Source: Candidatus Gottesmanbacteria bacterium GW2011_GWC1_43_10
GTDB taxonomy: Bacteria > Patescibacteriota > Microgenomatia > UBA10105
Assembly (NCBI GenBank): GCA_000995415.1
Contig: LCEX01000013.1
Location: 1 to 43,580, forward strand
DNA length: 43,580 nucleotides
Direction of reading: 5' to 3'
A model generated the notes under the pieces. The model was not told where the DNA came from, did not search any database, and saw only the letters and a program-made list of their open reading frames with translations. The translations under genes were made by a program, and so were the position numbers. This document shows, one piece after another, positions 31,653 to 34,818 of this stretch; positions within the stretch are counted from its first letter, which is position 1, and each line of letters begins with the position of its first letter.

Positions 31653-33161
31653 ATGGATCAGATTCAAAATTTCATAAATCAGGCACGAACACAAGGAAAA
31701 ACAGATGAACAAATTAAGGAATTGTTCTTACAACAAGGTTGGACATCACAACAACTTCAATCATATTTTGAGGCCAACAATCTTTCGAGTCCCAATCCGC
31801 AACCAATGACTCCCGCAAAAAAAGATGTAAAATTGTGGATTTTCATCCTAATAATCATGTTCGTCTTAACTAGTATAGGAACAAGTGTTTGGTTTCTGAG
31901 TACAAATTTTAAAAAAACTGCTCCAAATAACTCAAATTTACCATCAACGATCAGCCCTACTCCGATTGCTGAACTACCACCTTCACCTTTGGCCTTATTT
32001 TTGCAATTTGATGAGCAAACTACGCGCGTGGGCGATAATAATACAAATCTAGCCGAAGTGAAAGTTTTTGATCTTGCTCAAAAGAAATTGCTTTTGGTTG
32101 ATCCTTTACTTGCAAAAAATGAAAATTTTTTGCCTACATTTGGACCCTGGTCTCATGATGGCAAGTATTTACCAATTCTTATGGTCACCCAAAGCGGCCA
32201 ACCTCATCCGTTGATTTTTTACGATGCGTTCACTCAAAAGGCCAAAACTATATATACATTTACTGGTGAAGAACAACAATATGGAAGTATGAGCACACAA
32301 TTTTGGTTTGCAAGTCGTTGGCTTGATAACTCGCGATTTGCTTTTAATAGAAGTTTTAGTCCACCAAATACTCCAATCACTTTCGATACTATTACAGATA
32401 GTGGCACGATCGGACAGACTGTCCAAACTAATACTATTAAAATGGCAACAACTCGTTTAACTTTTGAAACTGAGATAGCTTCTGCTACTTCGTCTGGAGT
32501 TGTATTTATATACAAAAACATGCAAATCGATAATCAACCCGTATCAATAGCACCAACAGGAACGATCCTTGGACTCATCGGTGAACAGCTAGTTAGTTGG
32601 GAACGTCCGAAAATACTTTCATTTCAGGAGCTTGCTCAGGATCCGGTCTTTAGTAAAAAACTCCAATCCGCTTCTGAGGCGGAAGCCGCGCTTATTATTG
32701 AACAAGCTTTGCATCCTCAAGGAGACTCTTTGGTGCATTTTTACGATATCCGTACTGGTAAGGAAGCTAATTTACAAGTTATCAAAAACGATGGCTGGAT
32801 TGTGACGGATATTCAAATTAGACCTCTCAAACAAACACTTATTTTTGCTCAGAAGGAAAAAGCCATTGCTCCCTATGCAACTCGTTTCCTAGAAATTGAT
32901 CCCCAAAACTGGACACAGGGTAAAATTAAAGCCACGACTGCACCGTTACAAGATTTGCCTCTAGTCTCAGCTGATCTTACAGACGTGTCCTTCGCCCTTT
33001 CAGCTGATAGTCTGTGGCTACTGGCCTATGAAGCTCCGGTTACCTCTGCTCGAGGGGCAATATCAGCCTGGAATATTGATTCAGGAGAAAAAATAGTGGT
33101 ATGTGAAAAATTATGTTCACATCTGAGTGTGTACAATCCTAACCAGTTGACTCGACGTTAA
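31653..33161 (+). CDS. Single-TM protein with beta-propeller-like extracytoplasmic domain
   Basis: The 502-aa product begins with a short helical module (DQIQNFINQARTQGKTDEQI ... GWTSQQLQSYF), a Q-x-G-x-x-D-x-x-I-x-x-x-L pattern I associate with CPR membrane proteins. A TM helix (about 58-80, LWIFILIIMFVLTSIGTSVWF) and a Ser/Pro linker follow. A long beta-rich domain resembles TolB/WD40-type propeller repeats (FGPWSHDGKYLPIL; SADLTDVSFALSADSLWLLA). TACATT lies 6 nt before the ATG, leaderless spacing. No enzyme motif was seen. Confidence 0.7.
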   Translation: MDQIQNFINQARTQGKTDEQIKELFLQQGWTSQQLQSYFEANNLSSPNPQPMTPAKKDVKLWIFILIIMFVLTSIGTSVWFLSTNFKKTAPNNSNLPSTISPTPIAELPPSPLALFLQFDEQTTRVGDNNTNLAEVKVFDLAQKKLLLVDPLLAKNENFLPTFGPWSHDGKYLPILMVTQSGQPHPLIFYDAFTQKAKTIYTFTGEEQQYGSMSTQFWFASRWLDNSRFAFNRSFSPPNTPITFDTITDSGTIGQTVQTNTIKMATTRLTFETEIASATSSGVVFIYKNMQIDNQPVSIAPTGTILGLIGEQLVSWERPKILSFQELAQDPVFSKKLQSASEAEAALIIEQALHPQGDSLVHFYDIRTGKEANLQVIKNDGWIVTDIQIRPLKQTLIFAQKEKAIAPYATRFLEIDPQNWTQGKIKATTAPLQDLPLVSADLTDVSFALSADSLWLLAYEAPVTSARGAISAWNIDSGEKIVVCEKLCSHLSVYNPNQLTRR

Positions 33162-33189
33162 TCTCTAAATTGTGTATAATAAGCTCAAC

Positions 33190-33234
33190 ATGACAAATCA
33201 AACCTCCATGATGATGGAAATGCCAGCCGACTAA
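33190..33234 (+). CDS. Met-rich leader peptide upstream of metG
   Basis: ORF of 14 codons encoding MTNQTSMMMEMPAD followed by TAA: four internal Met codons (33208-33216 and 33220-33222). TATAAT at 33175-33180 lies 9 nt before the ATG, so it would be the first thing translated on the metG transcript. No Shine-Dalgarno, as for other near-leaderless genes here. The stop codon directly abuts the antiterminator segment at 33235. Proposed role: ribosome stalling at Met codons when charged Met-tRNA is low switches the downstream RNA to read-through. There is no direct evidence of translation, but the amino-acid match to the downstream synthetase makes chance unlikely. Confidence 0.72.
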   Translation: MTNQTSMMMEMPAD

Positions 33235-33281
33235 GCGGAGATGTTTCATGTGTACCAAGGCCTCCGCAAGGAGGCTTTTTT
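33235..33281 (+). terminator. metG attenuator: terminator with competing antiterminator
   Basis: Terminator: GCCTCC (33260-33265), GCAA tetraloop, GGAGGC (33270-33275), then six Ts (33276-33281). Antiterminator: GCGGAG (33235-33240), right after the leader stop codon, is the exact inverse complement of CTCCGC (33262-33267), which overlaps the terminator's 5' arm. A ribosome at the stop codon would cover 33235-33240 and let the terminator form. One stalled at the Met codons would leave it free. Confidence 0.75.
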
Positions 33282-33350
33282 GATGGCCGGCTACTGAACT
33301 GAACAAAGTGAAGTTACCAGCCAATCAATCCACCTTTGGCGGATGAGGAG

Positions 33351-33378
33351 TTAATGTTTTTATAAAATCAGGTACAAT
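33351..33378 (+). promoter_or_regulatory. Possible second, weaker promoter directly before metG
   Basis: TTAATG (33351-33356), 16 nt, TACAAT (33373-33378). Its start near 33385 would cut into the metG Shine-Dalgarno (AAGGAG, 33381-33386). If active it would bypass the attenuator. Confidence 0.35.
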
Positions 33379-33390
33379 ATAAGGAGACTT

Positions 33391-34818
33391 ATGAACCAAA
33401 AATTTTATCTCACCAGCGCCATTCCTTATGTCAATGCCGCACCACATATTGGACACGCCCAAGAATTTGTGTATGCCGATGTGATTCGTCGGTATCATCA
33501 ACTACTGAATCAAGAGGTGCTGTATCTATGTGGAGCAGATGAAAATGCTTTGAAAATTTTCCAAGCTGCAGAAAAATCTGGTCAAACCCCGCAAGCCTTC
33601 ACTGACTTACACAATCAGGAATTTTTGGAAGTGGCTAAGCAACTCAACGTGCATTTTGATATTTGGCAAAGAGGCTCTGATCAAAAAAATCATTTTCCTT
33701 CTTCACAAAAACTCTGGGAACTCTGTCAAAAAAACGGCGATATTTATAAAAAATCCTACACCGGTCTCTACTGCGTGGGATGTGAGATGTTTTATACCGA
33801 AGACGAGTTAAATGAAAAAGGCGAATGTTTTGAACATCCCGGAAGAAAGTTAGATAAAGTTTCAGAAGAAAATTATTTCTTTAAACTTTCCCGCTATCAA
33901 ACTTTCTTAGAAGATTTATTAGTGCATGATAAATTAAAAGTTATCCCTGATATTCGCAAAAATGAAGCATTGGCTTTTGTGCAAAGAGGTCTTCCTGATT
34001 TTTCCATTTCCAGAAGCAGAGAACGAGCTCGCGGTTGGGGCATACCGGTTCCCGGTGACGAAAGTCAAATCATGTATGTCTGGTTTGACGCTTTAAACAT
34101 TTATCAAACCGGAATTGGATTCCACGGTGATGAGACAACGTATCGAAAATGGTCACCACAAGATGTGATGGTGATTGGCAAAGGCATTATTCGTTTTCAT
34201 GCAATTTACTGGCCGGCGATTTTGAAATCCGCAGGTCTTCCACTTCCTAAAGAATTGTTTGTACACGGGTATCTAACTGTTGATGGACAAAAGATGTCCA
34301 AAACAATTGGTAATGTAGTCGATCCAATTGAAGTAATCCAAAAATATGGTACTGATGCGACTCGGTATTATCTCCTCCGCGAAATTCCTTCAACCGCTGA
34401 CGGCGATTATTCCCAGCGCCGATTTAAAGAACTCTACAACGCAGATCTGGCAAATGGACTAGGAAATCTCGTTGCTAGAATAAGTCGTTTGGCTGAAAAA
34501 GTTACATTAACTCCTCCACTCACCGAAGAATTTCAAGCGGATTACAAAAATTTGCTTAACTCTTTCCAATTTGATCTGGCACTCGCTTGGATTTGGGAAA
34601 AGATAAAAATTACGGATAAATTTATTAACGACAACGAACCTTGGAAAATCACTGATCAAAAAAAATTAACTGAAGTTTTACAAAAAGCAGTTAATGAAAT
34701 AGGGGAGATCGCGTTTCATCTCCAGCCTTTTTTGCCAGACACTGCAGAAAAAATTCTCACGCAGTTCTCCGGCTCTCAAATAAAATCTCAACCACCACTG
34801 TTTCCCCGACTTTCTTAA
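33391..34818 (+). CDS. metG: Methionyl-tRNA synthetase
   Basis: Class I synthetase that charges tRNA-Met, including initiator tRNA. The 475-aa product has the HIGH motif at H19-IGH (VNAAPHIGHAQEFVYAD), the KMSKS-type loop at 301-304 (DGQKMSKTIGNVVDP), the CP region with one zinc knuckle (C128-x-x-C131, LYCVGCEMFY) plus GECFEHPGR, and the WFDAL and GKGIIRFHAIYWPAIL signatures. The anticodon-binding helical domain ends near 460; no C-terminal tRNA-binding (OB) extension is present. AAGGAG lies 4 nt before the ATG. It is preceded by a Met-rich leader peptide and attenuator. Confidence 0.96.
   Translation: MNQKFYLTSAIPYVNAAPHIGHAQEFVYADVIRRYHQLLNQEVLYLCGADENALKIFQAAEKSGQTPQAFTDLHNQEFLEVAKQLNVHFDIWQRGSDQKNHFPSSQKLWELCQKNGDIYKKSYTGLYCVGCEMFYTEDELNEKGECFEHPGRKLDKVSEENYFFKLSRYQTFLEDLLVHDKLKVIPDIRKNEALAFVQRGLPDFSISRSRERARGWGIPVPGDESQIMYVWFDALNIYQTGIGFHGDETTYRKWSPQDVMVIGKGIIRFHAIYWPAILKSAGLPLPKELFVHGYLTVDGQKMSKTIGNVVDPIEVIQKYGTDATRYYLLREIPSTADGDYSQRRFKELYNADLANGLGNLVARISRLAEKVTLTPPLTEEFQADYKNLLNSFQFDLALAWIWEKIKITDKFINDNEPWKITDQKKLTEVLQKAVNEIGEIAFHLQPFLPDTAEKILTQFSGSQIKSQPPLFPRLS

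Follow-up and report, generated by a model that had tools for sequence, protein, structure and literature searches.

A putative Met-codon attenuator upstream of metG in a Gottesmanbacterium and related leaders with gene-matched codons in Microgenomatia

The analysed window is a 43,580-nucleotide stretch of Candidatus Gottesmanbacteria bacterium GW2011_GWC1_43_10 and corresponds to contig 13 of a 1.4-Mb, 94% complete host genome. It contains metG, whose product was assigned to the class I methionyl-tRNA synthetases by Pfam, preceded by a short open reading frame (ORF) and an intrinsic terminator (Table 1). The stop codon of the upstream gene is at 33161, and a promoter and the 14-codon ORF lie between this stop and the terminator; the metG start codon is located 110 nt beyond the T-run. 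The upstream gene (31653-33161) encodes a 502-aa protein with no Pfam match and is placed between metG and a small membrane-protein gene, which directly adjoins metG in many relatives. Codons 7, 8, 9 (33208-33216) and 11 (33220-33222) of the short ORF are Met codons. Transcription from P1 is expected to start at approximately 33187, yielding a 5′ untranslated region of about 3 nt; the ORF begins only 9 nt past the -10 box, and the leader RNA should therefore be leaderless. The GCGGAG abutting the stop codon is the exact complement of CTCCGC, which overlaps the 5′ arm of the terminator. The terminator stem (33257-33265/33270-33278) is closed by a GCAA loop and has its core at 33260-33265/33270-33275, and the fold of 33187-33281 has a free energy of -29.6 kcal/mol (z -3.3). 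A sequence-only reading of this DNA had described the TATAAT box, the Met-rich ORF, the GCGGAG/CTCCGC complement, the terminator and metG some 110 nt further on, and all of these were recovered where it had placed them. In a simple terminator scan of the window the metG-leader hairpin was not listed, probably because its stem pairs into the T-run.

Table 1. Features of the metG leader region in the window.
Feature	Position	Strand	Evidence or remark
P1 promoter: TCGACG (33152-33157), 17 nt, TATAAT (33175-33180)	33152..33180	+	promoter score 10/12
Leader ORF MTNQTSMMMEMPAD, 14 codons, ATG 33190 to TAA 33234	33190..33234	+	sequence; homologous ORFs before metG elsewhere
Segment 1, AACCTCC; complements segment 2 (GGAGGTT) in most relatives	33201..33207	+	pairing imperfect in window
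Segment 2, GCGGAG; putative stop-adjacent antiterminator arm, abuts TAA	33235..33240	+	sequence, alignment, folding
TGTG, resembling the RNA-polymerase pause consensus	33249..33252	+	putative role
Segment 3, 5′ arm of terminator; CTCCGC (33262-33267) predicted to pair with segment 2	33257..33265	+	folding
Segment 4, GGAGGC, and T-run 33276-33281 (T6); intrinsic terminator	33270..33281	+	terminator -14.9 kcal/mol
Post-T-run element GATGG...ACCAGCC...ATCAATCC...TTTGGCGGA	33282..33345	+	also past the T-run of the host leuS attenuator and ileS T-box
Possible second -10 box TACAAT, could bypass the attenuator	33373..33378	+	gap to metG start 12 nt
metG Shine-Dalgarno AAGGAG	33381..33386	+	sequence
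metG, methionyl-tRNA synthetase, 475 aa; putative regulated gene	33391..34818	+	Pfam tRNA-synt_1g, 313.6 bits

The host genome was scanned for the same assembly (1.415 Mb, essentially the whole genome; 103 terminator-like sites). The full architecture was defined as a terminator, a sequence further upstream that complements the terminator's 5′ arm, an ORF whose end lies beside this complement, and a -10-like box immediately before the ORF. It was present at 3 of the 103 sites, compared to an expectation of 0.17 after shuffling of the DNA ahead of each terminator. A stricter scan had missed the 6-bp arm of the window; the required arm was shortened to 6 bp including five or more G-C pairs and hence tuned on the window, so that the fair count is the two other sites. 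One of these, on contig 20, is a second attenuator candidate: its ORF (MHHISLLALLLSHV) holds five Leu codons, the stop codon is followed by GCGGGG, CCCCGC lies in the terminator, and a 162-aa ORF and then leuS follow. The other (C11:12233, MLNNNVSIFLPMTLPIRRE) lacks an evident cognate gene and probably reflects chance or an unrelated element.

Of 30 metG loci from relatives, two have a plainly homologous leader immediately before metG (MKTQTSTLMAMQAVL in G014 and MNLRAALMEMPAV in G015). A covariance model (R1) built from these two leaders and that of the window was used to search 374 genomes of the class Microgenomatia. Met leaders were found before metG, or before an operon of a SAM-hydrolase gene and metG, in about 20 of the 374 genomes, belonging to Gottesmanbacteria and Roizmanbacteria (examples are MISQTSVMMDMMNAS, MTITISMMMAMTAD, MSKLIQTSMMMVMRAG and MKSSISMMMVMGPSK). 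Carriers include G014, G015, G094, G111, G011, G024, G017, G125, G363, G282, G231 and G131, as well as G049, G150, G088, G037 and G008. A pattern scan of GTDB genomes returned six named records, all from Candidatus Gottesmanbacteria, Roizmanbacteria or unnamed Patescibacteria. The leaders share a leaderless promoter, an ORF of 9-24 codons with cognate codons about four before the stop, a stop-adjacent arm, and a terminator. In 18 aligned Met leaders the terminator was paired in 93% of cells (three pairs, eight double changes; 0 of 500 shuffles as high) and the antiterminator in 88% (three pairs, five double changes; 3 of 500 shuffles). Pairing of segments 1 and 2, the protector or pause hairpin expected of trp/phe-type leaders, was present in 84% of cells with no covariation above shuffles, and is poor in the window. 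In the comparison that the sequence-only reading had proposed, relatives keep the Met codons, the stop-adjacent arm and the terminator together, with paired changes in the terminator.

Predicted RNA folding was consistent with two alternative states. Ahead of a ribosome at any Met codon of the window leader, the RNA folds segment 2 onto segment 3 before segment 4 has been made (-9.5 to -9.7 kcal/mol). Once the ribosome has reached the stop codon, the RNA in front of it can no longer adopt this helix and forms the terminator (-14.9 kcal/mol). The last cognate codon lies 3-5 codons before the stop in 43 of 53 family leaders. Modelled on this spacing, a ribosome stalled at the last cognate codon would leave the stop-adjacent arm free, and a ribosome at the stop would cover it. 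Across the family the mean antiterminator energy was -13.7 kcal/mol, compared to -7.1 kcal/mol for shuffled linkers. The antiterminator of the window (-9.7 kcal/mol) is weaker than its own terminator and weaker than those of all other Met relatives, and its segment 2 carries GGAGA where relatives have GGAGG. Taken alone, the stop-adjacent pairing in the window is unexceptional against shuffles (antiterminator z -1.2); its weight comes from conservation. A TANNNT motif was located 4-10 nt before the start codon in 49 of the 53 leaders (background 15%), and a Shine-Dalgarno before the leader ORF in none of them. Of the 53 leaders, 25 have a GTG 12-17 nt past the stop (12.3 on average and at most 23 in shuffled sequence), a recurrence that would suit a polymerase pause after segment 2.

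The matches to R1 already included Thr, Lys, Cys and Asn leaders. A further model (R3) covered only the region from the stop codon through the T-run, so that it contained no information on the peptide, and was run on the 374 class genomes. The ORFs were read after the search, and the downstream genes were named with NCBIfam and Pfam, except that several thrS and pheS genes were named by evident N-terminal similarity to library-matched ones. Thr runs preceded thrS (MFNLRLVNTTTTTFL), Phe codons preceded pheS (MTGKLALTSFFFFSHC) and the prephenate dehydratase gene pheA (MQNQRENFNFFFTFV), and Leu codons preceded leuS (MFILGLSRLLLTH). Lys was found before lysS of both classes, Arg before argS (..NSRRAAS), His before hisS (..GVHHFLP..) and Tyr before a tyrS operon (..KYYYLQP). 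Gln codons (..KNQQNQQV; L255, G116:C4) stood before gatC-gatA and a following gene, and a Gln-rich attenuator at this position fits the production of Gln-tRNA by amidation. Two leader types apparently control tRNA genes: six Asn codons before tRNA-Asn(GTT) (L069/L185, G593) and KK before tRNA-Lys(TTT) (L072/L188, G282:C1). Cognate-rich leaders before other synthetase genes, which the sequence-only reading had suggested looking for, are thus present in the same clade, including at leuS of the host itself.

Of 55 loci whose target is a synthetase, a tRNA, GatCA or pheA, 52 have at least two cognate residues in the last 12 codons, a count that is biased in that the Met loci came from models that include the leader and the target was taken as the first such gene downstream. 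Counted as failures, with no convincing cognate run, were G145 before tRNA-Leu(CAA), and G218 and G363:C1 before lysS. Summed over the 55 loci there were 191 cognate residues compared to 60.4 ± 10.0 with permuted targets; none of 20,000 permutations was as high, a figure that is no strict probability as the loci share descent. Among the 24 non-Met loci that had contributed to none of the models, 21 had at least two cognate residues (86 residues vs. 31.4 ± 6.8). As read from these sequences, the leader codons follow the identity of the downstream gene in many gene families, and the genes concerned serve tRNA charging with about ten amino acids. R3 matches in other classes (G601, G394, G569, G404 and G598) look like plain terminators and were rejected.

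Matches behind rplT and before pheS were kept apart, the ORF there being the tail of the ribosomal protein. In L228 (G152), the C-terminal tail of rplT (L20) ends ..AGFFFTS, and the attenuator scaffold with pheST comes immediately after it, as though the tail also served as a leader for Phe; FFF is missing from most other rplT tails in this position before pheS. In L221 (G179) and L256 (G049:C2), the Phe leader is followed by a PheS with a fused N-terminal AlaX-like (tRNA-synt_2c) domain. Mixed Cys-Thr-Cys-Thr leaders (L055 in G319, L234 in G239, L238 in G138 and L215 in G246) stood either some 500 nt ahead of a cysteine synthase gene or ahead of genes without a Pfam match. A Thr leader (L051 in G173, ..NGTTTTLV) precedes two genes, one of the NAD-epimerase family and one of the class I/II aminotransferase family, that might form a Tdh-Kbl threonine pair.

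The distribution of the metG leader is patchy. It is absent from the two genomes of the same family, the nearest relatives G001 and G002, which keep metG, and is present in 7 of 27 genomes of the order. The sequence-only reading had counted retention of metG with loss of the Met-rich ORF against attenuation; this pattern holds for both same-family genomes and for most of the order, whereas the seven carriers keep the leader, which is accordingly patchy and not fixed. On the metG tree, leader presence required at least 8 changes for 11 carriers, and the leader accompanies metG of two deeply divergent types, one in G024/G282 and the other in the remaining carriers. Such a distribution suggests that the metG leader has often been gained, lost or transferred.

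A second promoter, which had been raised earlier as a possible bypass, proved to be a recurrent family feature: TANNNT was found 4-11 nt before the start of the regulated gene in 25 of 52 cases compared to a 12% background, and many relatives among the 30 metG loci have a leaderless promoter directly at metG. In the window, the TACAAT overlaps the context of the metG Shine-Dalgarno. Since the second promoter recurs, the attenuator probably modulates metG expression above a basal level; regulated transcripts may add to those from the promoter past the terminator, which may supply part of metG expression.

Together, the observed anatomy, its conservation, the match of codons to genes across amino acids and the predicted alternative helices support ribosome-mediated attenuation by Met codons, as first proposed from the sequence, and we conclude that the metG leader is very probably a transcription attenuator sensing charged Met-tRNA. 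Leader translation, stalling, termination and the dependence on charging are what we infer from this arrangement. Transcription would start about 3 nt before the leader ATG, and the ribosome would begin on leaderless RNA. When Met-tRNA is ample, the ribosome would run to the UAA and its footprint would hide segment 2; 33257-33265 would then pair with 33270-33278 and transcription would stop at the T-run. When Met-tRNA is scarce, the ribosome would wait at Met codons 7-11, and the free segment 2 would pair with CTCCGC once this is made, resulting in no terminator and read-through into metG. Because initiator tRNA also becomes scarcer under Met starvation, the response should be counteracted in part.

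Several other explanations were weighed. The hairpin could be an ordinary terminator of the upstream gene, accompanied by a chance Met-rich ORF, with metG driven only by the promoter at about 33373. The TACAAT and Shine-Dalgarno before metG, and the leaderless promoters directly at metG in many relatives, would agree with this; against it, a promoter and a complete 14-codon ORF separate the upstream stop codon from the terminator, and the same assembly stands with cognate codons before many synthetase genes. A chance ORF before a terminator was rejected on the genome-wide shuffles (3 vs. 0.17 in the host) and on conservation, and we regard this explanation as very unlikely. Alternatively, the family may be real and the copy in the window decayed, so that it acts here mainly as a constitutive terminator and metG is expressed from the second promoter. 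Decay would account for GGAGA in place of GGAGG, for the low antiterminator stability and z-score, and for the absence of the element in sister genomes. However, the promoter, the four-Met ORF, the position of the stop, the 6-bp complement and the terminator are all intact, and in the classical trp leader it is normal that the terminator is more stable than the antiterminator. A decayed attenuator is in our judgement very improbable.

A nascent peptide of the form [LM]MxMPA could arrest the ribosome when a ligand, for example SAM or Met, is sensed, in place of stalling at empty Met codons; MxM followed by a small residue recurs in Met leaders, and S-adenosylmethionine hydrolase genes are found in the same operon. 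The same scaffold, however, bears gene-matched runs of Thr, Phe, Leu, Lys, Arg, Tyr or Asn. Stalling at codons accounts for these runs, and an arrest peptide specific to Met does not; a conserved arrest peptide was therefore rejected as highly improbable. A T-box or SAM riboswitch at metG might be imagined from the T-boxes before ileS, glyS and the tyrS operon of the host. No Rfam family reached the gathering threshold in the window, and a sensitive Rfam scan of 33100-33420 detected no T-box (RF00230) or SAM riboswitch, only a sub-threshold Phe_leader and an unrelated lncRNA, which leaves a riboswitch here with almost no probability.

Beyond the window, we consider it likely that in Microgenomatia, and sparsely in other Patescibacteria, a single exchangeable attenuator scaffold serves as a general sensor of tRNA charging. 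The scaffold would consist of a leaderless mini-ORF whose stop is fused to GGAGG, a complementary CCTCC, and a GGAGG with a T-run, with the codon run swapped for each gene. Its outputs would comprise synthetases for at least eight amino acids, GatCA, prephenate dehydratase, tRNA-Asn and tRNA-Lys, and the Met version would work although Met starvation also hits initiation.

The pheST (pheM), trp, his, leu and thr leaders of Proteobacteria likewise combine a cognate-codon ORF, a stop-adjacent antiterminator arm and an intrinsic terminator with a biosynthetic or synthetase target. The metG family differs from these in its Met codons, in being leaderless without a Shine-Dalgarno, and in using one scaffold for many amino acids. 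The attenuator elements had no match at gathering among Rfam leader families; the Phe_leader RF01859 scored 22.3 bits (E 0.15) against the window, below the gathering cut-off of 55. Leaderless leaders in Actinobacteria (Streptomyces leuS, trpS, thrS and alaS) also place short cognate-codon ORFs before synthetase genes (PMC8079986). A Met-containing ORF of 29 aa, metL, has been proposed before metNIQ in Streptomyces, with no typical Rho-independent terminator found; unlike the leader in the window, it precedes a transporter (PMC8079986). Also in Actinobacteria, attenuators were reported for trp, trpS and leuS, and no conserved RNA structures at methionine operons (PMC1262725). A His leader before hisS/hisZ in Bacillus is likewise a leader-peptide attenuator in place of a T-box at a synthetase gene; it serves a single amino acid in Firmicutes, unlike the multi-amino-acid scaffold described here. 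According to that study, Proteobacteria and Actinobacteria were previously the only groups with demonstrated leader-peptide systems (PMC2965389). T-box riboswitches also tie synthetase genes to tRNA charging but sense the tRNA by RNA; they are present in the host genome, with none at metG. The host T-boxes (C3:40568, C22:4930 and C3:68426; L063-L065) precede glyS, a tyrS-containing operon and ileS, respectively, and score 44-50 bits, below the Rfam cut-off of 93 bits; one CPR genome would thereby combine T-boxes and leader-peptide attenuators. In the open-licence literature we found no leader peptides or attenuators in Patescibacteria, the Candidate Phyla Radiation or Microgenomates, and none for metG, in agreement with the earlier statement that no described Met-codon attenuator of metG in CPR bacteria was known. 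The attenuation mechanism is established; the codon and the phylum appear to be new, the start is predicted to be leaderless, and the scaffold is probably exchangeable.

To our knowledge, the control of gene expression in the Candidate Phyla Radiation has hardly been studied, and many amino-acid pathways are missing in these hosts. A common tRNA-charging sensor that can be read from sequence would reveal which synthetases and tRNAs are controlled and which amino acids become limiting. An attenuator with Met codons is a special case, as a sister of the sensed tRNA starts every protein, and whether leaderless starts escape the conflict between Met starvation and initiation becomes testable. Leader control of tRNA genes and GatCA would extend attenuation to outputs for which we found no earlier report, and one scaffold with exchanged codons provides a natural experiment on the codon logic of attenuation.

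The element that follows the T-run in the window is a GATGG... inverted repeat ending in ATCAATC. In the host it was also found at C20:7441 (leuS attenuator) and C3:68704 (ileS T-box), and the remaining TTTTTGATGG sites of the host are without extended similarity. The same inverted repeat lies behind the Met leaders L008 (G011) and L043 (G047), and its hairpin would exist only in read-through RNA.
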